Assembly: GCA_020723165.1 (NCBI GenBank)
Contig: DYJK01000022.1
Span: forward strand, 1 to 37,540
Origin: Melioribacter roseus
Lineage (GTDB): Bacteria; Bacteroidota; Ignavibacteria; Ignavibacteriales; Melioribacteraceae
Length of the DNA: 37,540 nt
Direction: 5' to 3'
Part shown: positions 2,691 to 22,044 of the stretch, one piece after another
Layout: each line of letters starts with the position of its first letter
Numbering within the stretch: the first letter of the stretch is position 1
Notes under the pieces: model-generated
Seen by the model: the letters and a program-made list of their open reading frames with translations, nothing else
Told to the model about the DNA's origin: nothing
The model's database searches: none
Program-made: the position numbers and the translations under genes

Positions 2691-2722
2691 AAAAAACCCT
2701 TCCCGGTGAATCCAAGAAGGGT
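2691..2722 (-). terminator. Attenuator terminator of the trp operon
   Basis: Read on the minus strand, ACCCTTCTTGG pairs with CCGGGAAGGGT around an ATTCA loop. This gives 11 bp including two G-U pairs, followed directly by TTTTTTG. It is an intrinsic terminator lying between the leader peptide and trpE. Bases 2702-2706 of its 3' arm are also used by the antiterminator pairing, so the two structures exclude each other. Confidence 0.9.
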
Positions 2723-2759
2723 CTGCAAACTTCTATTTTAATTATCCTAATTCACCGGG
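2702..2759 (-). promoter_or_regulatory. Antiterminator of the trp attenuator
   Basis: CCCGGTGAAT (2759-2750), at the end of the leader reading frame, is perfectly complementary over 10 bases to ATTCACCGGG (2711-2702). The latter is the loop plus part of the 3' arm of the terminator. A ribosome finishing at the TAG (2749-2747) would cover the first strand and let the terminator form. A ribosome stalled on the Trp codons upstream would leave it free to pair and allow readthrough into trpE. Confidence 0.88.
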
Positions 2760-2839
2760 GTTGCGTATTTCTCCGTATACCACCACCAAAACCATGTTGT
2801 GGTAAAATTAGTATAATATGTTGCGTTGTTCATTTTCAT
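2747..2839 (-). CDS. trpL: trp leader peptide (30 aa)
   Basis: This small reading frame was found by reading the minus strand between the trp promoter and trpE. The ATG at 2839 (a second ATG is at 2833) starts a 30-residue peptide with five Trp-region residues W-F-W-W-W, i.e. four Trp codons at residues 16 and 18-20, ending at TAG 2749-2747. Four Trp codons in 30 residues, followed by mutually exclusive hairpins, is the standard design of ribosome-mediated attenuation. The peptide has no other expected function. No Shine-Dalgarno sequence precedes it, and the start lies only a few bases from the predicted transcription start. Confidence is high because the peptide, antiterminator, terminator and promoter all fall in the right order. 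Confidence 0.9.
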   Translation of the reverse strand: MKMNNATYYTNFTTTWFWWWYTEKYATPVN

Positions 2840-2845
2840 TTGCTG

Positions 2846-2877
2846 CAAAGATATATTTTCAAACGGCTTGTTGTCAA
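2846..2877 (-). promoter_or_regulatory. Promoter of the trp operon (Bacteroidota-type)
   Basis: On the minus strand TTG (in TTGACA, from 2877) is followed after 21 bp by TATCTTTG (2853-2846), a perfect match to the TAnnTTTG -7 consensus of Bacteroidota-like sigma factors. The predicted transcription start is near 2841, immediately upstream of the trpL start codon. Confidence 0.75.
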
Positions 2878-8853: not shown

Positions 8854-10334
8854 TTAACATTTCAAATACTAAACACTGGTTAACAGAACAAGCAGAAAAA
8901 TTCAATAACAAACCGGCAGTTTTAATTAATAATAATTCGATTACTTATTTTGAATTATACAAATCTTCGTCAAATTTAGCTTTTCATTTACTTTCGATCG
9001 GCATTGTAGAAAATGATAATGTAGCAATTCTTTGCGGAAACAATATTGAATTTATCAAAACAGTAAATGCATTGTGGCTAATCGGCGCAGTGCCGGTTCC
9101 GCTTAATACAAGAAATAATGTTGAAGAAATAGAATCTCAAATTAAACATGCGGATGTAAAATTTCTGTTAATCGAAAAATCACTATCGGAAAAATTTTCT
9201 CGATTAAGCTTAGATAAAAAAATTGTATTAAATCCAATCGAAACAATAACCGATAATCAACGACCTTTGGCTCAAATCTCAAAACTCAGAACTCAAAACT
9301 CAGGACATTCAGCACTCGTTCTTTTCACTTCCGGCAGCAGCGGAAAACCGAAAGCCGTTTTACACACATTCTCAACTTTGTATGAAAGTGTTTTAATGAC
9401 AGATGGTTTATGCAATCTGGATAGCAGCGATGTTTGGCTCGCTTCGCTTCCGTTTTATCATATTGGTGGATTTATGATTTTAGTCCGTGCACTTTTGAGC
9501 GGTGCCATACTTGCATTCCCCGAATCTCTCAACCACGAAAGTATTTCAGCGGCTGTGCAAATGTATAATCCGACTCATGTTTCGATTGTATCGACTACCT
9601 TGAAACAATTTTTAGATAACGGAATAAATCCCAACGAGAACTTGCAATATCTTTTTCTCGGCGGCGGTCCGCTTAATGAAGGACTTTGCGGAGAAGCAAT
9701 TGCTAAAGGATTTCCAATCACAAAAGTTTACGGTTCAACAGAAACATGTTCTATGATTTCTGCATTGTGCAAAGAAGATTTTCATAATAAACCAAATTCG
9801 GTAGGCAAACCTTTAGGCGAAACGAAAATCAAAATATTAGATGAAAACGAAAAAGAAATTTTCGGTTCTGTTGGTGAAATTGCCGTACAAAGTAAAACCT
9901 TGCTAAAAGTTTATTACAATGATGAAAAAGAAACAGAAAAAAAATTTATAAACGGATTTTACCGCACCGGCGATTTAGGATGGATTGATAATGACAGTTT
10001 TCTATTTGTTCAATCGAGAAAGGAAGATATTATTATAAGCGGCGGAGAAAATATTTCAACAAAAGAAGTTGAAGAGGCAATAAAAACTTGTAAAGGTGTA
10101 CACGATACGTTTGTTTTTGGAATGAAAGACGAAACATGGGGCGAAGCTGTTTATGCAGTTATTTCATGCGGTGAAGATGTAACTGAACGGACAATTATCA
10201 AACACTTGCGGAAAAGTGTTGGTGCTTATAAAATTCCAAAAAAAATTTTTTTTCTAGAAAAAATACCCCGTTCAGAACTTGGGAAAGTTAACAAGGAAGA
10301 ACTTTTTAACCTCCTTAGCCTAAATGTTCATTAA
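8850..10334 (+). CDS. menE: o-Succinylbenzoate-CoA ligase
   Basis: Activates o-succinylbenzoate to OSB-CoA through an acyl-adenylate. It is a 494-residue ANL-superfamily ligase with the phosphate loop FTSGSSGKPK (159-168), the YGSTETC motif, RTGDLGWID with the ribose-binding Asp, and a C-terminal catalytic Lys around 479 in ELGKVNKEEL. The ligase family is broad; assignment as MenE rests on the operon. Residues about 141-152, just before the phosphate loop, are encoded by five tandem heptamers (9271-9305) that look like a repeat insertion in a surface linker. The last 20 bp overlap the convergent thioesterase gene. Confidence 0.93.
   Translation: MINISNTKHWLTEQAEKFNNKPAVLINNNSITYFELYKSSSNLAFHLLSIGIVENDNVAILCGNNIEFIKTVNALWLIGAVPVPLNTRNNVEEIESQIKHADVKFLLIEKSLSEKFSRLSLDKKIVLNPIETITDNQRPLAQISKLRTQNSGHSALVLFTSGSSGKPKAVLHTFSTLYESVLMTDGLCNLDSSDVWLASLPFYHIGGFMILVRALLSGAILAFPESLNHESISAAVQMYNPTHVSIVSTTLKQFLDNGINPNENLQYLFLGGGPLNEGLCGEAIAKGFPITKVYGSTETCSMISALCKEDFHNKPNSVGKPLGETKIKILDENEKEIFGSVGEIAVQSKTLLKVYYNDEKETEKKFINGFYRTGDLGWIDNDSFLFVQSRKEDIIISGGENISTKEVEEAIKTCKGVHDTFVFGMKDETWGEAVYAVISCGEDVTERTIIKHLRKSVGAYKIPKKIFFLEKIPRSELGKVNKEELFNLLSLNVH
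9271..9305 (+). repeat. Heptanucleotide tandem repeat inside menE
   Basis: Five consecutive 7-bp units: CTCAAAT, CTCAAAA, CTCAGAA, CTCAAAA, CTCAGGA. The period is not a multiple of three, so gain or loss of one unit would shift the menE frame. Similar 7-bp arrays occur at 16746-16780, 17401-17428 and 34350-34377. Confidence 0.8.
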
Positions 10335-10716
10335 GTTTTTTGAAGAACTCTTTAGGCAGTTCAATCTTTTTAAAATTTCCTTTAGAAACACAAACATGAA
10401 CAGTTTTTGCTTGTGCAGTAAATTCGCCGTCGTTTTTATAGAATCTATAAGTAATCTCAAACGAAGAATTTTTCAAAGAGCTTACCGATACATCAATACG
10501 CAACTCGTCACCGACACGAATCGGCTTTACATAGTCGGCTTCAGCGTGGAAAATAGGTAAAACATATTCTTGATCGAAAAAAAAATTCCGTTCGGTATGC
10601 AAACTTCTTAAAAAATCTTCATAAGCTGCGTGAACGTATTTAAAAATACTTGCGTAAAATATTATCCCGGCCGGGTCGGCATCATAAAAATAAACTTTTT
10701 GGTTTGAATTGAACAT
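10315..10716 (-). CDS. Hotdog-fold acyl-CoA thioesterase (4HBT type; possible DHNA-CoA thioesterase)
   Basis: A 4-hydroxybenzoyl-CoA-type thioesterase of about 133 residues. The motif YDADPAGIIFYASIF carries the catalytic-type Asp in DPAG, at the position of Asp17 of the Pseudomonas 4HBA-CoA thioesterase. An alternative GTG start lies three codons upstream at 10725; the ATG at 10716 has GGA just upstream. The gene is convergent with menE and overlaps it by 20 bp. Menaquinone synthesis needs a thioesterase to release DHNA from DHNA-CoA after MenB, and enzymes of this fold do so in other bacteria, so that role is plausible here. A YbgC-like housekeeping thioesterase cannot be excluded. Confidence 0.8.
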   Translation of the reverse strand: MFNSNQKVYFYDADPAGIIFYASIFKYVHAAYEDFLRSLHTERNFFFDQEYVLPIFHAEADYVKPIRVGDELRIDVSVSSLKNSSFEITYRFYKNDGEFTAQAKTVHVCVSKGNFKKIELPKEFFKKLNEHLG

Positions 10717-10840
10717 TTCCGTCACTTTTTATTCCAAACTTAACCAATGACTTCGACTAATTCTATTTTTTTTCTTTGAAATGGAACTTGTTTTACCGTT
10801 TTTCAATTTGTTAATTAGCAATCAAAATTATTGGAAATAG

Positions 10841-11848
10841 ATGGAAAACATTATACTTTTTCCCTTTTCAGAGTATTGGGGCGTTTACGTAGGATTCACA
10901 ATATTTGTATTATTAGTATTAGCATTAGATTTAGGCGTTTTTCACAGAGAAGCGCACGAAGTAACATTTAAAGAAGCAGCAATCTGGTCGGTTGTTTGGA
11001 TAGCTCTCGCTCTTCTTTTCAATCTTGCATTTTATTACTACGCAAATTGGAAATTTTCTACTCAGCCTGAATACGCTGCAATACCCGGTTTCATTCCGGA
11101 AGCTGCGGCAAAACAATCGGCTTTAGAATTTCTAACCGGATATATTATTGAAAAATCTCTCTCCGTAGATAATATTTTTGTATTTGTTGTGGTGTTTACT
11201 TTTTTTGCAATACCGGCAAAATATCAGCACCGGATTTTATTTTATGGAATTTTAGGTGCGTTGATTTTCAGGATCATTTTCATTTCACTCGGATCCATTC
11301 TTCTTCAGTATCATACACTAATAATTATCTTCGGCGTATTTTTAATCTTGACCGGAATTAAAATTTTATTTTCACCGGAGAAAGAAATTAATCCCGATAA
11401 AAACCCGGTTATAAAACTCCTTAAAAAAATCTTTCCCGTAACTCCTAACATTGAAGGACAAAAATTCTTTTTCCGCAAGGAAGGAGTATTGTATGCAACA
11501 CCACTTTTAGTCTGTTTGGTTTTTGTTGAATTGACCGACATAATTTTTGCAATTGATTCGGTTCCGGCAATTTTTGCTATTACCAAAGAACCGTTGATCG
11601 TTTTTACATCAAACATTTTTGCAATACTCGGTTTGCGTGCACTATATTTTCTTTTAGCCGGAGTCGTGAACAAATTCAAGTATTTGAAATACGGACTTGG
11701 ACTTGTACTTGTTTTTGTAGGTTTGAAAATGGCGTGGCTTAACGAAGCATTCGGCGGCAAGTTCCCGATTAGCTGGTCGCTCGGAATTATTGCCGGAATT
11801 ATTTCATTGTCAATAATAATTTCACTTGTCGCTACGAAAAAAAGATAA
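10841..11848 (+). CDS. TerC/Alx-family integral membrane protein
   Basis: A 335-residue inner-membrane protein with about nine hydrophobic segments. The two acidic signature motifs of the family are present: EKSLSVDNIFVF (104-115) and ELTDIIFAIDSVPA (230-243), the latter with Asp233 and Asp239. A charged cytoplasmic loop spans roughly 178-212. TerC/Alx proteins are linked to tellurite resistance, pH response and manganese export; recent bacterial work favours Mn2+ handling. Nothing in the neighbourhood (no ter genes, no yybP-ykoY riboswitch recognised upstream) narrows this. It is transcribed alone and ends at a clear terminator. Confidence 0.9.
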   Translation: MENIILFPFSEYWGVYVGFTIFVLLVLALDLGVFHREAHEVTFKEAAIWSVVWIALALLFNLAFYYYANWKFSTQPEYAAIPGFIPEAAAKQSALEFLTGYIIEKSLSVDNIFVFVVVFTFFAIPAKYQHRILFYGILGALIFRIIFISLGSILLQYHTLIIIFGVFLILTGIKILFSPEKEINPDKNPVIKLLKKIFPVTPNIEGQKFFFRKEGVLYATPLLVCLVFVELTDIIFAIDSVPAIFAITKEPLIVFTSNIFAILGLRALYFLLAGVVNKFKYLKYGLGLVLVFVGLKMAWLNEAFGGKFPISWSLGIIAGIISLSIIISLVATKKR

Positions 11849-11876
11849 GTGATTTCAGCAAAATTATCTCAAAAGG

Positions 11877-11904
11877 AACCCGGTTATGCCGGGTTTTTCT
11901 TTTT
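11877..11904 (+). terminator. Intrinsic terminator after the TerC-family gene
   Basis: AACCCGG (11877-11883) and CCGGGTT (11889-11895) form a 7-bp stem around a 5-base loop, followed by a T-rich run (TTTCTTTTT). It lies 28 bp after the stop codon. Confidence 0.88.
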
Positions 11905-11965
11905 CAATTATGCCTTACTCCGTTTCCCTCTTTTCATTAAATTGCAGACCAAATAAATCAGTCTG

Positions 11966-13228
11966 ATGAAAAAAATCGTTTTCATATTTTTATTTATTTC
12001 AATCACTTCTTTCGCACAAGAATTGAAAAGAGAGTATTATCCGAACGGAAAAACAAAATCCGAGGGATATTACGAGAATGGTATACGCAGTGGTGTGTAC
12101 AAAGAATATTATGAGAGCGGTAAAATTTGGAAAGAATGGTTTTTTGTAAACGGAAAAGAAGAAGGAATATCAACCTGGTATTTTGAAGATGGAACAAAAA
12201 GTATGGAGTGGAATTACCGGAACGGTAAACTTGAAGGGTTATCAAAATGGTATTATGAAAGTGGAGAACTTTGGGCTGAACCGAATTACGTAAATGATAC
12301 CCAGGAGGGATTTAATAAAACTTATTATAAATCCGGTGCCCTCCAGGCAATATGGAACTATATAAATGGTAAACTAAACGGCATCTCAAAAATATTTTTT
12401 GAAAATGGACAGGTTGAAGTGGAAAGAAATTATGTTGATGATCAATTAGAAGGAATCAGTAAAGTCTATTTTGATTTCGGTCTCATTGCTCTTGAAGCGA
12501 ATTACAAAAACGATCTGCTTGATGGTACCTCGTATTTTTATTATCCCGATGGCTCTATTAAAGTGATTGATACTTATGATAAAGGACAGATAGTGAAGCG
12601 CGAACGTTTCGGAATAGGCGGCAAGTTTGATAAAGTAGAAGAAAGTTTTACGGATTTTTACGATGAAGGAACTATGCGATCTGTGCAAAATTTCCACGAA
12701 GGAAAACTGCACGGCAAAGTTATTCATTACTACCCAAGCGGTTACCTGAAATCCGAGTTGAATTATATTGATGGTAAGTTGGAGGATGAATGCAAATTCT
12801 ATTACGACGACGGCATTATATCCGAAATTGCAGATTATTATGGCGGAATGAAAAACGGTCTATCAACAAAATTTAACCAGGATGGGGTAAAAATTGCTGA
12901 AGACAATTATGTTAATGACAAATTGGAAGCCACCTCAAAAACATTTTACATCAGCGGAGAAGTTCGATCAAAGCGAACTTATAGGAATAATAAACTGGAA
13001 GGAACAACAACCTATTATTATAAAAATGGAAAAACTCTAGCTGAGGAAAATTTCAGTAAGGGTTTAAAAGAAGGGATCTCAAAATGGTATTATGAAAACG
13101 GGCGTCTGTCTGATTTTTTAATTTACAAAAACAATCTTCTCAATGGGAAAATAATATCTTACTCTTTAGATGGAAAAGTAAGCGGTGAAAAAGAATATGT
13201 GAGTGGTGAATTAGTACAAACTAAATAA
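11966..13228 (+). CDS. Secreted MORN-repeat protein (MORN_2 type)
   Basis: A 420-residue protein with a Sec signal peptide (MKKIVFIFLFISITSFA, probable cleavage before QE). The rest, about residues 20-415, is built from roughly 16-17 degenerate repeats of 23-24 residues of the form WYY-x-NG-x(5-6)-Y-x-NGKLEGIS. This matches the MORN_2 beta-hairpin repeats found in exported proteins of Bacteroidota, sometimes labelled YwqK-like antitoxins. One unit near residues 205-220 is interrupted. No enzymatic domain is visible. A binding or scaffolding role at the envelope is the most that can be said. It converges on hsdM with a 22-bp gap. Confidence 0.85.
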   Translation: MKKIVFIFLFISITSFAQELKREYYPNGKTKSEGYYENGIRSGVYKEYYESGKIWKEWFFVNGKEEGISTWYFEDGTKSMEWNYRNGKLEGLSKWYYESGELWAEPNYVNDTQEGFNKTYYKSGALQAIWNYINGKLNGISKIFFENGQVEVERNYVDDQLEGISKVYFDFGLIALEANYKNDLLDGTSYFYYPDGSIKVIDTYDKGQIVKRERFGIGGKFDKVEESFTDFYDEGTMRSVQNFHEGKLHGKVIHYYPSGYLKSELNYIDGKLEDECKFYYDDGIISEIADYYGGMKNGLSTKFNQDGVKIAEDNYVNDKLEATSKTFYISGEVRSKRTYRNNKLEGTTTYYYKNGKTLAEENFSKGLKEGISKWYYENGRLSDFLIYKNNLLNGKIISYSLDGKVSGEKEYVSGELVQTK

Positions 13229-13250
13229 TATTCCGAAATAATTATCTTAA

Positions 13251-14708
13251 TCAATTTTTGTTATTCAAACCACTTATAATTTCTCTAAAATTTTCCAGAC
13301 TTGCTTCAACATTTTCGATGATCTCGGTTGCTAATATATCCGGATCCGGTAAATTCTCTGTGTCTGTTAAGCTTTCGTCTTTCAACCAAGTAATATCAAG
13401 ACTAGTTTTATCACGTGATATTATTTCATCATATGTAAATTTCTTGAATCTCTCCGTCTCTGTACGTTTAAATCTGTTCTTAGGATTATAACATTTTATA
13501 AAATTTTCAAGATGTTCATACTTTAATGTGTTTGTCTTTAATGTAAAATGCTGATTTGTTCTAAAATCGTAAATCCACACTTCTTTTGTCCATGGAGTTT
13601 TACTTGCCGGTTTGTTATCAAAGAAAATTACATTTGCTTTTACACCCTGAGCATAAAAAATACCGGTTGGTAATCGGAGTATTGTATGCAAATCAGTCAT
13701 CTGCAAAAGATTCTTTCTGACAGTTTCACCGGCACCGCCTTCAAACAAAACATTATCCGGAACAACAACAGCGGCTTTTCCATCGGGCTTAAGCATTGAT
13801 ACAATATGTTGTACAAAGTTTAACTGCTTATTAGAAGTAGTAACCCAGAAGTCTTGCCTCTCATAAGTTAATGATTCCCTTTTTTGAATTCCTTCTTCAT
13901 TTGTTATTGTTATACTACTCTTTTTGCCAAACGGCGGATTTGTTAATACATAATCATAATTAGTGTTTGGTTTTGATAAGAGACTATCCTCACGGGCAAC
14001 TAACGGTTCACTATCAAGGTCGCTTATGCTGTGCAAATACAAATTCATTAAGCATAAACGCGCTGCGCTTGGTACAATTTCCCATCCTTTGAATGTTTTG
14101 AATTTCAGATATTCCTTTTGTGTACGGTCAAGATTTTGTTTGCTCAGATAATTGTACGATGAAAGAAAAAATCCGCCCGTTCCGCATGCCGGATCAGCAA
14201 TTGTTTTCATTGGTTCGGGTTTAATACATTCAACCATGGCTTTAATTAATGCACGCGGAGTAAAATATTGACCGGCTCCGCTCTTGGTATCTTCCGCATT
14301 CTTTTCAAGAAGTCCCTCATAGATATCACCTTTTACATCAGTCTCCATCGTAAGCCAGTTCTCTTCATCAATAAGCTGAATAAGTTTATAAAGTTTTGCC
14401 GGATCTTGTATTTTATTCTGCGACTTGAAGAATATTTCACCCAGCATTCCTTTTTTCTTTCCGAGTTCCGTTAAAACAGTTACATAAAATACTTCCAGCT
14501 CTGCACCGGTTTTTGAACGGAGTTTTTCCCAATCGTATTTTTTATCGATTATTGTTTCTCTGTTGTATGGCGGTTTGGAATACTCGTAAGCCATTTTAAG
14601 AAACAACAGATATGTTAACTGTTCTAAATAATCTCCGTAGCTAACACCGTCATCACGGAGAATGTTGCAGTAGTTCCAAACTTTTGATACGATGGTTGCT
14701 GTTGTCAT
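13251..14708 (-). CDS. hsdM: Type I restriction-modification DNA methyltransferase subunit
   Basis: The N6-adenine methyltransferase subunit of a type I RM complex; two copies with one HsdS form the modification enzyme. It is 485 residues. An N-terminal helical domain (about 1-140) is followed by the catalytic core with TPRALIKAMVE, the SAM-binding motif ADPACGTGGF (171-180) and the catalytic TNPPFG (256-261). These motifs are intact, so modification activity is expected. The start overlaps the fic stop by 4 bp (ATGA), so hsdM is the last gene of the island's minus-strand run and depends on fic translation or the fic promoter. Confidence 0.95.
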   Translation of the reverse strand: MTTATIVSKVWNYCNILRDDGVSYGDYLEQLTYLLFLKMAYEYSKPPYNRETIIDKKYDWEKLRSKTGAELEVFYVTVLTELGKKKGMLGEIFFKSQNKIQDPAKLYKLIQLIDEENWLTMETDVKGDIYEGLLEKNAEDTKSGAGQYFTPRALIKAMVECIKPEPMKTIADPACGTGGFFLSSYNYLSKQNLDRTQKEYLKFKTFKGWEIVPSAARLCLMNLYLHSISDLDSEPLVAREDSLLSKPNTNYDYVLTNPPFGKKSSITITNEEGIQKRESLTYERQDFWVTTSNKQLNFVQHIVSMLKPDGKAAVVVPDNVLFEGGAGETVRKNLLQMTDLHTILRLPTGIFYAQGVKANVIFFDNKPASKTPWTKEVWIYDFRTNQHFTLKTNTLKYEHLENFIKCYNPKNRFKRTETERFKKFTYDEIISRDKTSLDITWLKDESLTDTENLPDPDILATEIIENVEASLENFREIISGLNNKN

Positions 14709-15847
14709 TCGTTATTTGAGAATAGTTTATAATATTGTTCAAACAAGAAGAATCGATTCCTTTTGTAACCGGTTAATTCTTTTAGTATACCCAACTCTTC
14801 AAATTGATTAATAATTGCATTTGCCGGTTTAGTTGTAACATTCAGAATTTTTTCAACATCTTTAACATTGATCAACGGTTTTTTATAAAGGAAGTTAATT
14901 AGATTCTTGGCATTTTTTACTCTCTTTCCGAGTGAGAGTAATTTCGTCCCTTCAATATTTTCTTTCAATTTTAGTATTTCCCTAAAGGTTTTAACTCCTT
15001 TATCCGATGTTTCGATTACGGCAACAAGAAAAAATTTGATCCATTGAATTAAATTGTTTGATGTCCGTATAAAAGTCAGGTTATCATAATACAATGATTT
15101 TTTTCTCTCAAAAAAATCTGAAAGGTATAGAGTTGGTTTATCCAATAAACCAGTTGATACCAAATAGAGCGTTATCATCAATCTCCCCAATCTACCGTTT
15201 CCATCAAGGAAAGGATGAATAGTTTCAAACTGATAATGTGCAATAGCAATTTTGATGAGATGCGGTACTTCTATTTTATCATTATGAATAAAATTTTCAA
15301 GATCATTCATCAAATCGGAAATCTCGGTATGATGGGGTGGGACAAAAACAGCATCTTTCAAAGTTGCGCCGCCAATCCAATTTTGACTTGTTCGGTATTC
15401 GCCAGGCATTTTCGATTCACCTCTTACTCCTTCCAACAAAATTTTATGGGCTTCTTTTAACAGCCGTGTAGATAGAGGAATTTCTTTTAATTTTTCTATC
15501 GAATAATTCAGGGCTTTAATGTAGTTCTGAACTTCGCTCCAGTCATCCCGTTTTTCGGGCGCTATTTCATCAATTGAAAGCAATGCTTCATCAACACCGG
15601 TTTTTGTACCTTCAATTTTGCTGGATGTTGTTGCTTCTTTTATCACATGCATTGATATAAAAAAATTAATATCAGGAACGTAGAGCGAAAAAGCATTAAG
15701 CTCGCCCAGCTTTTTATTTGCCTCGGCAAGAAGCGTATTAATTTTCGGATCTTTCCATGTCCATTCCAGATTTACCTTTGATGGCGTAAAACTTTTATAT
15801 TGATATTGCTGTATATATTGACCGGCTTTAAATTCTATTAAATCCAT
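14705..15847 (-). CDS. Fic-family AMP-transferase, class II, with C-terminal winged helix
   Basis: A 380-residue Fic protein. The N-terminal Fic_N region contains the inhibitory helix motif SSKIEG (75-80, pattern [ST]xxxE[GN]). This marks an autoinhibited class II enzyme. The active-site loop HPFLDGNGRLGR (211-222) is canonical, so AMP transfer to a protein hydroxyl is expected once inhibition is relieved. The last ~70 residues look like a winged-helix DNA-binding domain (KKPLINVKDVEKIL, then PANAIINQFEELGIL). The open frame begins upstream at a TTG at 15871; the ATG at 15847 is preferred. It lies between hsdS and hsdM, behind its own promoter with three phased repeats, and is coupled to hsdM. 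The targets are unknown. Confidence 0.92.
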   Translation of the reverse strand: MDLIEFKAGQYIQQYQYKSFTPSKVNLEWTWKDPKINTLLAEANKKLGELNAFSLYVPDINFFISMHVIKEATTSSKIEGTKTGVDEALLSIDEIAPEKRDDWSEVQNYIKALNYSIEKLKEIPLSTRLLKEAHKILLEGVRGESKMPGEYRTSQNWIGGATLKDAVFVPPHHTEISDLMNDLENFIHNDKIEVPHLIKIAIAHYQFETIHPFLDGNGRLGRLMITLYLVSTGLLDKPTLYLSDFFERKKSLYYDNLTFIRTSNNLIQWIKFFLVAVIETSDKGVKTFREILKLKENIEGTKLLSLGKRVKNAKNLINFLYKKPLINVKDVEKILNVTTKPANAIINQFEELGILKELTGYKRNRFFLFEQYYKLFSNNE

Positions 15848-15868
15848 TTTCAGCTCTTTTTGACTCCA

Positions 15869-15899
15869 CAAAAATAATTTATAATGGACTTTAAGTCAA
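15869..15899 (-). promoter_or_regulatory. Promoter of fic-hsdM (Bacteroidota-type)
   Basis: On the minus strand TTG (15899-15897) is followed after 20 bp by TATTTTTG (15876-15869), a perfect TAnnTTTG. The predicted start is about 15-20 bases before the fic ATG. The spacer contains operator-like repeat 1 (15880-15895), so a bound repressor would block the promoter. Confidence 0.65.
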
Positions 15900-15972
15900 T
15901 ATGTTCTACTATAATAATATATAATGGAGTTTAAGCGATTATCGGCAATTATAAACTAATGAAATGGAGTTT
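15880..15972. repeat. Three operator-like direct repeats at 40-bp spacing upstream of fic
   Basis: TATAATGGACTTTAAG (15880-15895) and TATAATGGAGTTTAAG (15920-15935) are 15/16 identical. A shorter third copy, AATGGAGTTT (15963-15972), lies at the same register. The common AATGGA core recurs exactly every 40 bp (T at 15885, 15925, 15965), close to four helical turns. Repeat 1 sits between the -33 and -7 elements of the fic promoter. This is the arrangement of a multi-site operator. The rest of the 264-bp gap up to hsdS holds no gene. Confidence 0.7.
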
Positions 15973-16111
15973 CTTTAATATAACCTATACAATTATCAAA
16001 CATGGTAAATCTTTAGAAAATCCATATCATCTCCATACCAACTCCCATTATTTTGTCTCAGGTTATTAAACTAAACTTCCTTCAAACGTCCATCAGAGGC
16101 GGACAATTTAA

Positions 16112-17440
16112 TCATATTAATTCACCATTGAACGCTTGTTTAAGTATGCTCTGTTTTAACTGCTCTGCCTTTTCTAAACTTTCGTCTATTGTTTGTTCTA
16201 ATTTATCCGCCACAGAAAACCGCCGCTCGATTTCGGAAACGATTTTTGATTGTTCATTCAGTGGTGGTAGTAAAACCATAAAATTTGATAATGTACTGAA
16301 GCTGACTCGTGGATGATGAACACCACTTATATTGGATTGTGCATAACTAACAAAATCTTTTGAAAGAAGGCGATATTTAAGAAATTGATTTGAGTGATAA
16401 TCACTTTTCGAAAAGACTAAAATATCAGTTGAACAAACTCCGTCATAATCCGGCACTGCTACTTTATTCAAATACGGTCTTAACTTTCCATATAATAAGT
16501 CACCTTTTCTATAAACAGTTTTTGTGCTAACAGTTTCATCAGAATTTGAATAACCTATAATCTTTCCACTATCTTTTTCAATATGCTCTAGCCCAATAAA
16601 TTTTTGTCTTTTATTTTCTTTCGGTTCAAATCTTTCTTTAGAAGGACTAATAACCTCACCCAGCTTCACCCATTTCCAACCTTCGGGGAGTGCAGAGTGC
16701 TGCCCGCCTTGGCGGGTAAAAGTGTAGAATGCAGAATTAACTCCATTCATTCTGCGTTCTAAGTTCTGCATTCTGGATTCATCCGTCAGCTTACCGCTGA
16801 ACGCATACGCAAGCACACTTTGTCTGTAAGTTTTAATTTGTTCTTTTGCTTTGCGGAGGTTTTCAATTCCGTTATCCAGTTCGCTGAAGAGTTCTTCTAT
16901 TTTTGCAACAATTTTTTTTTGCTCGTGGAGTGGTGGGAGGGGAATTTCTAACTCTTTTAATTGTTTTTTAGTAACTCCATTTATTGTCGTACCTCTACTA
17001 TTAGATTTGAAAGATTGAACTGCTTTTGATAGAATATATAAAGCATAATCAACGTCAATCAACTTTTTGTTTAACACAAGACCTTGTGAATCCTGACTAA
17101 AACACATATCAAAATTATTCTTTGCTATTTTTCCAAGGCCAACACGTGTAACCACTACAAGATTTTCTTTTGGTAAAAGATTCGTAGCTGATTCTTCAAT
17201 CGCTTTTTTTGTAATAGCTTTCCTCGGAGTAATACTTTTTATTCCCAAAATATCCGCGCTTGTAATCCATGGAATATTGCCATTCCAAAAAGATTTATTC
17301 ATTGTTGAAGGAGTACCGCCACCTAAAATAGATTTACAAACATCACCAAGTCTGACCCAAGACCAGTCATTTGGTAATTTTGAATCATGCCTAACGGCAG
17401 ACGAGTTGCGGATTGCGAATTGAGAATTATTACTTGACAT
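16112..17440 (-). CDS. hsdS: Type I restriction-modification specificity subunit
   Basis: The DNA-recognition subunit, 442 residues with the usual two target-recognition domains. TRD1 follows LPNDWSWVRLGDV (near 22-34) and TRD2 follows LPEGWKWVKLGEV (near 249-261). Each TRD ends in the conserved helical spacer that begins LPPLHEQKKIV or LPPLNEQSKIV, followed by a long coiled coil ending QSVLAYAFSGKL or QSILKQAFNGEL. Segments just before each TRD are encoded by 7-bp tandem repeats (17401-17428 and 16746-16780) and by a GC-rich palindrome at 16703-16716. They read as low-complexity linkers. The start overlaps the DUF5131 gene by 11 bp. The half-sites of the target sequence cannot be predicted by eye. 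Confidence 0.94.
   Translation of the reverse strand: MSSNNSQFAIRNSSAVRHDSKLPNDWSWVRLGDVCKSILGGGTPSTMNKSFWNGNIPWITSADILGIKSITPRKAITKKAIEESATNLLPKENLVVVTRVGLGKIAKNNFDMCFSQDSQGLVLNKKLIDVDYALYILSKAVQSFKSNSRGTTINGVTKKQLKELEIPLPPLHEQKKIVAKIEELFSELDNGIENLRKAKEQIKTYRQSVLAYAFSGKLTDESRMQNLERRMNGVNSAFYTFTRQGGQHSALPEGWKWVKLGEVISPSKERFEPKENKRQKFIGLEHIEKDSGKIIGYSNSDETVSTKTVYRKGDLLYGKLRPYLNKVAVPDYDGVCSTDILVFSKSDYHSNQFLKYRLLSKDFVSYAQSNISGVHHPRVSFSTLSNFMVLLPPLNEQSKIVSEIERRFSVADKLEQTIDESLEKAEQLKQSILKQAFNGELI
16703..16780. repeat. Heptamer array plus palindrome in the hsdS inter-TRD linker
   Basis: On the plus strand five 7-bp units occupy 16746-16780: TTCATTC, TGCGTTC, TAAGTTC, TGCATTC, TGGATTC. Inverted units GTAGAAT and GCAGAAT lie at 16724-16737. 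A palindrome CCCGCC-TT-GGCGGG is at 16703-16716. All of it is inside the hsdS frame and encodes the linker between TRD1 and TRD2. Confidence 0.75.
17401..17428 (-). repeat. Heptamer array at the 5' end of hsdS
   Basis: Starting four codons after the hsdS ATG, the minus strand reads AATTCTC, AATTCGC, AATCCGC, AACTCGT: four degenerate 7-bp units encoding the residues before TRD1. Changing the unit number by one would put hsdS out of frame. Confidence 0.75.
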
Positions 17441-18155
17441 ATTTTAAATTTACTTCAGGCATGCCGTTGTAAAATTTTCCGTTAAGTTTACGCCCGCTTT
17501 TCTTTTTATTTGTTCCGCCCCATTGCTTAAAGAAAAATTCTACTCCGGCTTTTTCACAAGCATTCAATATATCTAAAACCCATTCAGGCTCCATTGGGCG
17601 AGGCGTTCTTCCGCTTTCTCCCCCCACAATAACCCAATCAATTTTTCCCAAGTTTAAGTTCGGCAAAGGACCAATCAATGGTTCGCAAGAAAGAAACTTG
17701 GTTTTTGCATGCGTTTCACTCAAAAGATCTATTCTGTTCATCACTTTTTCGTTTTCAACAGAAACACCCATCCAAATATTATGTGTCCATTTTAATTCTT
17801 TGTTATACTTAAGAAGAATGTCTGCACGTTTTGTAAGTATTTGAAAAACATGCTGGGGATTCTCATTCATAACTTTAAATACTTTTTTAATAAAACTAAG
17901 CGGAATGTCTTTATGGAATAGATCGCTCATAGAATTAACAAAAGCAATACGGGGTTTTTTCCACGTATAAGGAATTCTTAAATCATCATCGTGAAGAGTG
18001 AGTTTAAAGCCATTATTATACTTAACCAAACCCATTGCTTTTAGTCTTCTTGCCATCACTTCGGCGTAACAAAATTTACACCCGGCAGAAATTTTATTGC
18101 AACCCGTGGACGGATTCCACGACATTTCAGTCCATTCGATTCTAGTTTGTGCCAC
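17430..18155 (-). CDS. DUF5131 / Gp37-Gp68 family three-Cys-motif protein
   Basis: About 241 residues of the PF07505-type family, known by a three-cysteine motif resembling the Fe-S site of radical SAM proteins. Here it is C19-x6-C26-x2-C29 in STGCNKISAGCKFCYAE, preceded by EWTEMSWNP. The rest (CEPLIGPLP, VIVGGESGRTPRPM, FFKQWGG) is the family's conserved core. The biochemical function is unknown. The start is a GTG at 18155 with AAGGAAG 6-7 bases upstream, overlapping tcmP by 14 bp. The longer frame to 18248 would overlap tcmP by 107 bp and adds non-conserved sequence. Direct coupling to its usual partner TcmP inside an RM operon suggests a joint role, possibly DNA or RNA modification or defence. 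Confidence 0.85.
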   Translation of the reverse strand: MAQTRIEWTEMSWNPSTGCNKISAGCKFCYAEVMARRLKAMGLVKYNNGFKLTLHDDDLRIPYTWKKPRIAFVNSMSDLFHKDIPLSFIKKVFKVMNENPQHVFQILTKRADILLKYNKELKWTHNIWMGVSVENEKVMNRIDLLSETHAKTKFLSCEPLIGPLPNLNLGKIDWVIVGGESGRTPRPMEPEWVLDILNACEKAGVEFFFKQWGGTNKKKSGRKLNGKFYNGMPEVNLKYVK

Positions 18156-19281
18156 AATTAGCTTCCTTTTTTTTAAATAATATTTGCCTTTTTTCATTAT
18201 CCAAGTATAGTCCCTTAATCTCTTTGGAATCCATTGCAATAATATCAATACTACCTTCCTTATTCAATTTCTTAATTATATCAGCGGCATGAGTAGGTAA
18301 AAATCCGTTTTCGTAGGAATACTCATTAATTTCCATATTTGTTCTACCAGAACCAGATAGTATAAAACGTGTTAGATTTTCTTGAAAACCTGTTGATTCA
18401 CTTTCTGAGAAAAGGTCTCCAGTATCGTTAATCTTAAAGCCTTTGCCTCTCTCTCTATCAATATTCCATTTGGTCTGAACTATTTTTTTATAACCAACTT
18501 TATTATTCGTAAAAAAAAACAAACAAAAAACACTATTGGCATCCCTTTCTATAAAAAAAGTATCGATGTATTTCATTTGCAAGTATTCTTGGAATCGTTT
18601 CTTTATATCAAGAATAAAACTATATACGTTTTTAGTGTTTGGTATATTGTTTTCAAATAACTCTTGAAAAAATCGTTCTAAACTTTCTCCTCCTTCAAAT
18701 CCTTCCGTAACAGCTTTGTTAGCAAACCTATACATGAAATAAATCGGGATAAAAAGCAACAATTCTGTTTTACCATTCATTAAAATGAATTTAATTTCTT
18801 CAGGATGAATATCTTTATATCCCCAAGGATCAATAAACACTAAGGCTCGTTGACTATTTTCCATATGATTTAGATGTCGAATAAGATGTTTAACGATATC
18901 ATTATAGTCTATTGAATAATACTTTATTTTAACGTTTGTAGGAACGAATTCTTTTTCAATAAATTCTTTTACTCTGTCAATCTTCTTTTTTCCTTTTTCA
19001 ATTTTAGAAATACCAATATCATTAAGAATTAGCATTATATCTTTCGTTTTATTTCCATTTGAGAAATAATGCCTCTTGATTGTTTCAACACTTTGAATAG
19101 AACTTCCTTTTTTTCCATCTTCATAAATTCCTTCACCAGCAAATAAATCGAACAAAAAGATTTTTTCAATGTACTGGACTCTTTCAATAATATTTAAATA
19201 AACAGCGAGATATTTAATATAAAGCTCTACTTTAGCTACAGAGTGAGGCATCATAACTATTTTAGAATCTTTTTTACTCAT
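18142..19281 (-). CDS. tcmP: Three-Cys-motif partner protein TcmP
   Basis: A 379-residue protein matching the TcmP family, which is found beside DUF5131-type three-Cys proteins. FLFDLFAGEGIYEDG (42-56) resembles motif I of SAM-dependent methyltransferases and FIDPWGYKDIHP (149-160) resembles a DPPY-like motif IV. A Rossmann methyltransferase-like fold is therefore likely, though activity is unproven. The C-terminal ~100 residues look like a helical or winged-helix region (NGFLPTHAADIIKKLNKEGSI). The start overlaps the hsdR stop as ATGA and the end overlaps DUF5131, so it is coupled on both sides. The gene looks more AT-rich than hsdR and hsdM, hinting at a separate origin. Confidence 0.85.
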   Translation of the reverse strand: MSKKDSKIVMMPHSVAKVELYIKYLAVYLNIIERVQYIEKIFLFDLFAGEGIYEDGKKGSSIQSVETIKRHYFSNGNKTKDIMLILNDIGISKIEKGKKKIDRVKEFIEKEFVPTNVKIKYYSIDYNDIVKHLIRHLNHMENSQRALVFIDPWGYKDIHPEEIKFILMNGKTELLLFIPIYFMYRFANKAVTEGFEGGESLERFFQELFENNIPNTKNVYSFILDIKKRFQEYLQMKYIDTFFIERDANSVFCLFFFTNNKVGYKKIVQTKWNIDRERGKGFKINDTGDLFSESESTGFQENLTRFILSGSGRTNMEINEYSYENGFLPTHAADIIKKLNKEGSIDIIAMDSKEIKGLYLDNEKRQILFKKKEANCGTN

Positions 19282-22044
19282 GTTGCTAATTCCTCATTCA
19301 ACTCATTAACAATCTTTTCTGTCTCTTCTCCAAACAATTTCCAAAATTTCCCCAGCCCGCCGTTATCAATAAAAGGCGTGTAATCAAAATCATCTTTTTC
19401 AATTCTAACCGAAGTAACAATATGGTCGCGTATCATTCGTAACCAGTCGAGTTGTTCTTCAGTAAATATTTTACCAACTGCTTGTCGGCGGAATATCCAG
19501 TTCTTAAAGTTAATGTTTACAATTTCGCTGTAAGGTTTCAGTTCTTTATCAATTCCAATTTCGTAACGGATAAGAGAAATAATATCTGTCAAAATTCTTG
19601 CTGCGGTTAAACCGGTAACTTTCTGCGGTTCAAGCCGGTGATACGCATTCCAAATCTTTTCAGCAGTTAACATATACGGCGGAGATGCGAGAAGTTCTTT
19701 CAGTTCGGTAATCATTTTAAGTGTTAAATCTTTTCTTCTGTACGGCTGGCTGTAAAGAATTTTAAGTGCAATAATTTCATTTTTCTTTTCGTCAAGGAAT
19801 TTGCGGAAGTTGTTAATAATTTCTTCTGCATTTTCTTTTGCTGTTTTATCAAATCCTGAGAATGTTACTTTATCAATATTTACGGTATCAATAATCTGGT
19901 AAATTTTCTGCCGCACGGTTTCAACAAAATTGCGCAGTTCCGGATTATCAAACGGTTTAGTAACAGATTGAATAATCGGCTCCATTGCTGATTGAATTTG
20001 TTCGGGTGTTGGTTCCTCATTGTTGGACAGATTATAAATCTGTCCTACGGTCTTGGATTGGAAATCGGGATCGTAAAGATTTGCAAGTTCAACAGCAACT
20101 TGAGTTATAGATTTTCCATCAGCTAATTCCATGAACTTTTCTCTATCGGTTTCTGAAATCTGTTTATCAATTTTAGTCAACCGTGAAGCAAGAGCAGAAA
20201 CATTATCTTCATCTGGCTGTAGCATAACCATTTTCATCAAATCTCTTAGAGGAACAGAAGGTTTTCTATCAACAACCGGATAATCAACTTTTATAGATTT
20301 GAAAGCTCCAACAGCATCAATAATATAAAAACGTTCCTTGTTCAGTATAGCTCCTGGTGTAACCTTAACAAGTTCATCTCTGCTGAATGAGCGTGTTCCC
20401 CTTCCAATCATTTGCTGGAAATAATTTCTCGAACGCACATCGCGCATAAAAATTAATACTTCTATCGGTTTTACATCGGTTCCGGTTGCAATCATATCTA
20501 CTGTAACCGCAACGCGAGGATAGTACGCAGTTCTAAATTGCTGAAGAATTGATTCAGGGTCTTCGTTCTTTACATTGTAAGTTATCTTTTTGCAGAAGTC
20601 GTTCCCTTCGGCAAATTCTTCCCTTACAATATGAACAATATCTTCTGCATGGCTGTCGGTTTTGGCAAAGATCGAGGTCTTAGGAACTTCATTTTCATTT
20701 TTATTTCTTTCGGGGAAGAATTCTTCTTTTAGGACTCTTTTATATTCACGGAAAATATTCCTAATCTGGCTTGTATTTACTACATCTCTATCAAGCTGAT
20801 TTGGTTCGTATATAACTTCATCCTCAAGCTGGCGCCATTCTTTCTTTCTGGTCATCTTGTTCCGCAGATCAACAAACTGTTTCGCTTTTATCTGTGCACC
20901 GTGCTGTGTTATTTCTGTTTCGATTGTGTAAACATCGTAACCGACATTTACTTTATCAGCAATGGATTGTTTAAGCGTATATTCGCTTACAATATTTTCG
21001 TTGAAGAATCCAAAAGTCCGGTTGTCCGGTGTTGCGGTAAGTCCAATCATAAACGCATCGAAGTAATCGAGTATTTGTTTCCATAAATTGTAAATTGAGC
21101 GGTGGCATTCATCTATGATTATAAAATCGAATGTTTCAATCGGGAAGTTAGAATTGTAAACTACTTCGACTGGTTTATCAATAACTTTTGATTCGTATAG
21201 GGATTCATCTTCGAACGATTCATCGAGTTCTTTACCTTTAAGAATTGAATACATTCTCTGAATTGTGCTTATGCAGACTTGAGCTGAAGGATCAATAAAG
21301 TTCGATCTTAATCTCTGTACATTGTAAAGTTCAGTGAAAAGCCGTTTATCATCATTCGGTTTATAAGCTTGAAATTCTTGTTCGGCTTGTTTACCAAGAT
21401 TTCTTGTATCAACTAAAAATAAAATTCTTTTAGCACCGGCAAATTTAAGCAGACGATAAACAGCAGTAATGGCAGTAAATGTTTTACCGGCACCGGTTGC
21501 CATTTGTATAAGCGCACGCGGATGATTTACTGCAAATGATTTTTCCAGGTTTTCAATTGCTCTTATCTGGCAATCCCGAAGTTTTTCTTTATTAAGCTCT
21601 GGAAAATTTTGTAATCTCCTTCTTAATGTACTGCTCTGTTTCAATAGTTCATCTAATCTTTCAGGTCTGTGGAATGAAAAGATTTCTCTTTGCCGTGGAA
21701 TAGTATCTCTTGAATCTGTGAAAAATGTTTCTGTACCGGTCGATTCATATTGAAATGGCAGTTCATCCCTTCTTACGATAAACTTTAATTTGTCAGAGGC
21801 ATATCGGGTAGTTTGTTCGTGTACTTGACTAAGAAGTATACCCTTCTTTCTTTGCTTCAATTACACCAACTGGTTTACGTTCAACAAACAAAATATAATC
21901 AGCTGAACCGGACTCGGTTGGATATTCTGTTACAGCAATACCTTTTCCAACAGAAGGATTAAAATCTTGATAAGTCTGTACAGTCCAGCCAGAAGAAGTT
22001 AGAAGACTATCAATCTTTAAACGAGCTATCTGTTCCGGGTTCAT
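19278..22044 (-). pseudogene. hsdR: Type I restriction subunit HsdR, broken by one frameshift
   Basis: The ATP-dependent translocase and endonuclease of the type I complex, read in two frames. The first frame (ATG at 22044, stop at 21831-21829) holds the nuclease signature: Asp49 in SADYILF and EAKKEG (63-68). The second frame continues from about 21846 as GILLSQVHEQTTRYA and carries the helicase motifs: QMATGAGKT, IIDECHRS, GLTATPD and QMIGRGTRS, then a long C-terminal domain. Joining the frames requires removing one base near GAAGGGTAT (GGG at 21843-21841) and restores a normal protein of roughly 920 residues. All motifs are otherwise intact, so the lesion is recent, a sequencing error, or a recoding site. 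The stop overlaps tcmP by 4 bp. Confidence 0.88.

Follow-up and report, generated by a model that had tools for sequence, protein, structure and literature searches.

The stretch of DNA analysed here, 37,540 bp of a Melioribacter roseus assembly (hereafter, the window), carries on its minus strand the tryptophan biosynthesis genes trpE and trpG; as the contig ends shortly beyond trpG, the rest of the trp operon is not visible. On the plus strand, from position 2992, a series resembling menF-menD-menH-menB-menA-menE diverges from the trp operon, both starting from one 340-bp region (2650-2991), and chorismate is the substrate of the first enzymes of both. Farther along, on the minus strand, lie type I restriction-modification genes (13251-21860), an hsdM-like gene (PF02384) and an hsdR-like gene (PF04851/PF08463), with a gene for a Fic-domain protein between them. 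The features ahead of trpE, on which we focus here, are listed in Table 1 together with the two trp genes.

Table 1. Features of the trpE upstream region and of the trp genes in the window.
Feature	Position	Strand	Evidence
-33-type promoter element, TTGACA	2877-2872	minus	direct read; most Ignavibacteria relatives have a TTG at this spacing (19-21 nt) from the TAnnTTTG box
-7-type promoter element, TATCTTTG (TAnnTTTG)	2853-2846	minus	direct read; 2-12 nt ahead of the leader AUG in 32/42 Ignavibacteria
Leader ORF, MKMNNATYYTNFTTTWFWWWYTEKYATPVN, 30 codons and TAG	2839-2747	minus	direct read; Trp-rich counterpart in 42/42 Ignavibacteria loci
Regulatory codons TGG TTT TGG TGG TGG (W-F-W-W-W)	2794-2780	minus	direct read
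Region 1, protector strand inside the leader codons (ATTAT.CTAATT)	2817-2806	minus	pairs with 2752-2741; covariation and swap test
Region 2, antiterminator 5' strand (2759-2750, CCCGGTGAAT) sharing bases with the partner of region 1 (2752-2741) and with the leader stop codon	2759-2741	minus	covariation, folding
Region 3, antiterminator 3' strand, ATTCACCGGG (terminator loop and 3' arm)	2711-2702	minus	pairs with 2759-2750
Intrinsic terminator, ACCCTTCTTGG (2722-2712) with CCGGGAAGGGT (2706-2696), T-run 2696-2691	2722-2691	minus	folding, covariation
trpE, anthranilate synthase component I, regulated gene	2649-1150	minus	PF04715 and PF00425; TIGR00564, 2.2e-159
trpG, glutamine amidotransferase, overlaps trpE, operon partner	1172-603	minus	PF00117, 5.8e-59

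A first-pass annotation of this DNA had described a TAnnTTTG promoter and a 30-codon leader with a W-F-W-W-W run, and both were confirmed on re-reading and by script, every coordinate that it gave being right; the leader ORF also contains a second in-frame AUG (2833-2831). A short ORF with consecutive Trp codons ahead of a trp biosynthesis gene is one of the features by which ribosome-mediated trp attenuators are recognized. Another is the placement of the leader: its TAG stop (2749-2747) lies directly 3' of the antiterminator strand 2759-2750, an adjacency already pointed out in the annotation, so that a terminating ribosome would cover region 2. The antiterminator helix (2:3) is perfect over 10 bp (2759-2750 with 2711-2702), and the terminator (3:4) has a stem of 11 bp, including two G-U pairs, with the loop ATTCA and a T-run, both agreeing to the base with the annotation. 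Its statement that the 3' arm of the terminator overlaps the antiterminator is right in that a strand is shared, and can be refined, as the shared strand comprises the terminator loop and the start of the 3' arm. What this two-state picture lacks is a protector helix (1:2) of 11 bp (2817-2806 with 2752-2741), whose first strand is located upstream of the Trp run and which sequesters part of the antiterminator strand; with it, the layout becomes the classical 1:2 / 2:3 / 3:4.

The leader is conserved throughout the class. A search of named genomes for trpE returned 41 Ignavibacteria-type loci besides that of the window. In all 42, trpE is preceded by a short ORF that ends about 75-185 nt away from it and contains two or more Trp within five codons (3.6 loci on average after dinucleotide shuffling), and 40 of the 42 have at least three Trp within five codons (none after shuffling). 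No leader of the latter kind was found on the antisense strand, and the Trp-rich leader is absent from the Bacillota and other outgroup trpE loci of the same search. One relative (L032) has W-I-W only and no clear antiterminator. A terminator precedes trpE in the relatives, the automatic terminator finder giving no call for L034 and for three loci of the phylum sample. The window trpE is 95% identical to its counterpart in an Ignavibacteriales metagenome-assembled genome (L005). A search pattern made of the Trp codons and the terminator only (TGGTGG-N45-75-CCCTTC-N9-17-GAAGGGTTTT) matches 26 of 58 whole genomes of the window's order, in one place each and, as judged by tblastn, always directly before trpE, the single match in the window's genome included; the reversed pattern, used as a control, has no matches in the 58 genomes.

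Base pairing was counted on two subclade alignments, A1 (13 sequences, including the window) and A2 (18 sequences: L012-L020, L025, L034-L039, L041, L042). For helix 1:2, 84% of the cells are paired in A1, with two-sided changes in 6 of 11 pairs, and 80% in A2, with two-sided changes in 7 pairs. For helix 2:3, the respective values are 90% (5 of 10 pairs) and 93% (4 pairs), and for helix 3:4 in A1, 95.8% (3 pairs). The covariation score is above all 500 shuffles for 1:2 and 2:3 in both alignments and for 3:4 in A1, and pairing is destroyed when one strand is slid by 1-3 columns (to 29-42% for helix 2:3 in A1). As the arms were picked in individual sequences of small alignments, and the results of shuffling are inflated by relatedness, this slid-register control matters, and so does a swap test in which cognate arms were compared with arms exchanged between species, using permutations and double-centred duplex energies, which replaced raw energies because base composition dominates the latter. 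Cognate arms pair better both in Ignavibacteria (z -8.8 for 1:2 and -7.1 for 2:3) and in the sample of the phylum at large (z -8.8 for 1:2 and -7.5 for 2:3), and none of 10,000-20,000 permutations match them. A control upstream region also scores negatively (z -2.3 for Ignavibacteria and -3.8 for the phylum), and part of the signal must thus be due to composition or relatedness. The retention of the Trp codons and the covariation of the stems in relatives, on which the first-pass annotation had staked its reading, were both borne out, and for all three stems: the antiterminator and the intrinsic terminator are mutually exclusive, share a strand and both covary, and a device of these two helices only is rejected by the swap and covariation results for 1:2. 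Also rejected was tyrosine sensing through the Tyr-Tyr of the leader, as these codons (CATATTA) form the protector strand, pairing with TAATATG in A2. The conserved Thr-Tyr-Tyr of the A2 leader peptides, which stands at a fixed distance from the AUG and not from the Trp codons, is explained by this RNA pairing.

The RNA left exposed by the ribosome was subjected to ensemble folding, assuming a ribosome edge of 12 nt and equilibrium, with synthesis order ignored. With no ribosome, helix 1:2 is predicted together with the terminator (P(3:4)=0.996), which, along with the swap test and the covariation, supports a protector helix that leaves the terminator free to form in the absence of translation. 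With the ribosome on the stop codon, the terminator is again predicted (P(3:4)=0.998). With the Trp codon at 2788, 2785 or 2782 in the A site, the antiterminator would prevail (P(2:3)=0.70, 0.91 and 0.62, respectively; P(3:4)=0.07 at 2785), and a ribosome at the first Trp codon gives an ambivalent outcome (P(2:3)=0.46, P(3:4)=0.53). The fold energy of the whole leader is unexceptional, slightly more stable than shuffles (z -1.5); this value is uninformative, and the case rests on conservation and covariation. With a Trp-run leader, three exclusive and covarying helices, a position always before trpE, and predicted folding that depends on the ribosome position, the element is very probably a ribosome-mediated transcription attenuator of the trpEG operon, as the first-pass annotation had proposed, and one of the classical three-state kind.

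Other explanations fare much worse. The helices could act in translational attenuation, exposing or hiding the trpE ribosome binding site, and Shine-Dalgarno-like sequences of at least four bases are indeed commoner before trpE (27 of 42 loci) than before the leader AUG (2 of 42), but the last of the helices is a GC-rich hairpin with a T-run, which in the window leaves 40-50 nt to the trpE AUG, and the trpE start region takes part in none of the three, making this scenario very improbable. Even less credit can be given to a constitutive intrinsic terminator with a Trp-rich ORF upstream by chance and no regulation at all: strong intergenic terminators are common and the whole-leader fold barely beats shuffles, but chance is hard to reconcile with Trp-run leaders in 40 of 42 relatives versus none in shuffles and with the covariation of the antiterminator and protector helices, and a terminator ahead of a biosynthetic gene would silence the gene unless some read-through device were present. 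Finally, a tryptophan-responsive RNA working without a translating ribosome (a T-box reading tRNA-Trp, the TRAP protein or a tryptophan riboswitch) is comparably implausible, as, while such devices also attenuate trp operons elsewhere, no T-box or riboswitch covariance model matches the leader even at E<=5, the TRAP gene (mtrB, PF02081) is absent from the window's genome and 19 related genomes (the Bacillus subtilis control being positive), and such systems need no conserved Trp-run ORF with its stop at the antiterminator strand. A TrpR-type repressor was found in one of the same 20 genomes, not that of the window. With TRAP absent and TrpR so rare, attenuation may be the main tryptophan control in these bacteria.

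The leader transcript is predicted to start very close to the leader AUG. A promoter of the form TTG-N18-22-TAnnTT(T/C)G lies 2-12 nt before this AUG in 32 of 42 loci, and of the ten loci that lack this strict form, at least seven show, by eye, AT-rich boxes resembling it, which are outside this count; the comparison of promoter distances with other genes of these genomes covered 17 genes only. At mapped starts of Flavobacterium johnsoniae, the final G of the promoter box is at -5 (PMC6847099), and by this rule the leader 5'UTR is predicted to be 0-8 nt long; for the window this gives 2 nt, or 8 nt when counted from the second AUG. Leaders longer than 10 nt make up 87% in F. johnsoniae (PMC6847099), and in Bacteroides thetaiotaomicron those shorter than 10 nt make up only about 3.7% (PMC7366714).

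For the operation of the attenuator, we infer the ribosome positions, transcription start, termination and tryptophan response, as well as the ribosome footprint, the co-transcriptional order and the coupling of transcription and translation, as follows. Transcription would start a few bases ahead of the leader AUG, and a ribosome would load at this near-5'-terminal codon. With charged tRNA-Trp present, it would reach the TAG at 2749 and cover region 2, allowing 3:4 to form and RNA polymerase to stop in the U-run at about 2691. With charged tRNA-Trp scarce, it would stall on the WFWWW codons, covering region 1 and leaving region 2 free, so that 2:3 would form, the terminator could not, and trpEG would be transcribed. 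Without translation, 1:2 would form and block 2:3; owing to this protector helix, the absence of translation should again result in termination. The position of region 1 differs between the subclades. In A1, the first Trp codon follows it after 5-20 nt. In A2, where it occupies nucleotides 15-27 of the leader ORF, this distance is 21-33 nt, too far for a stalled ribosome to cover it directly. In A2, 1:2 could possibly be kept open by steric hindrance, or by a second ribosome starting or queuing behind.

The element resembles trpL of Escherichia coli in its Trp-codon leader peptide, its exclusive helices 1:2, 2:3 and 3:4, its intrinsic terminator and its position before trpE. It differs in that the Trp codons follow region 1 instead of lying within it, the leader stop codon marks the end of region 2, the transcript is predicted to start 0-8 nt from the leader AUG, which has no clear Shine-Dalgarno sequence, and TrpR was not found in the window's genome. 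The proteobacterial Rfam family Trp_leader is not among the window matches up to E 5, the sequence relation being undetectable. A closer parallel in terms of the start is the leaderless trpL (rnTrpL) of Sinorhizobium meliloti, whose transcript begins at the leader AUG (PMC7298713); this is likewise a Trp-leader attenuator with a (near-)leaderless start and no transcription repressor (PMC7298713), but it belongs to an Alphaproteobacterium and encodes a leader of 14 amino acids, versus 30 codons in the window.

The first-pass annotation considered trp attenuation noteworthy in Bacteroidota, and this is only partly so. A Trp-peptide leader of Bacteroidetes is already on record as Rfam RF01692, 'Bacteroid-trp' (Weinberg et al., 2010; PMC2864571), and Trp-run leaders are present in many Bacteroidota families besides those of RF01692: at least three Trp in five codons are found in 35 of 71 other Bacteroidota trpE loci (none in shuffles), in a sample chosen non-randomly, by family and match score. 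The family f24 (L085-L096, L098-L104), unlike most others, has no Trp-run leader at any of 19 trpE loci. At its cut-off, RF01692 is found in 27 of 296 sampled Bacteroidota genomes, all of families f28, f46 and f25, and in the control Bacteroides ihuae. It does not match the window at the gathering score (49 bits) or up to E 5, and is over the cut-off in none of the 58 genomes of the window's order. Thus, the kind of element is known in the phylum, while the clade of the window is left uncovered. The two share the phylum, a Trp-codon leader (AUG..UGGUGGUGG) ahead of trp genes, and a hairpin in the leader with the beginning of a terminator after it; they differ in the position of the AUG, which is about 20 nt into the RF01692 model. 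In the open literature, no paper on the Ignavibacteria trp leader was found; the comparative study of attenuation across bacteria by Lopatovskaya et al. (2010), as cited in PMC4833913, may contain further predictions.

Similar observations can be made for histidine. In 29 of 30 loci of the window's order (L185-L213), hisG is preceded, at about 75-105 nt, by the end of a short ORF with a His run (for example, MLLVFNHHHHHSILITESGVF and MKNIPATYHLHHHHFNSKRAG). Of 28 genomes sampled from other families, roughly a dozen have such leaders as well (L308, L310, L315, L316, L321 and L330 being among these loci). These are probably his attenuators; none of 20 such loci match any Rfam family. Leu and Ile/Val leaders were not found before leuA and ilvB, the first gene of that operon not being established. 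LeuA-like matches (TIGR00973) cross one TGA in two related genomes, G000:C137:37254-38408 (the window's genome) and G314:C152:100012-101178, and may merely run past the true stop.

What makes the finding valuable is that the leader is conserved, with covariation, across the whole class, that it has a third helix and a predicted near-leaderless start, and that hisG has His-run leaders in parallel. The new details are the placement of the leader AUG, within about 0-8 nt of the predicted transcription start, and the His-run leaders of hisG in the window's order. A broader proposal, which we consider unlikely, is that the trp and his attenuators of Bacteroidota are built around near-leaderless leader cistrons, with Bacteroidia ribosomes operating without Shine-Dalgarno pairing, and that in the A2 subclade, in which the protector strand is fixed relative to the AUG, 1:2 is held open not by the stalled ribosome but by a second one, either newly started or queued.

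Overall, ribosome-mediated trp control is extended, with support from covariation, to a whole class, Ignavibacteria, that the Rfam Bacteroid-trp model does not cover. The predicted near-leaderless start would present a natural and testable example of initiation without a Shine-Dalgarno sequence. As such a device works only if the ribosome closely trails RNA polymerase, the conservation of the trp leader in Ignavibacteria also points indirectly to coupling of transcription and translation in these bacteria.
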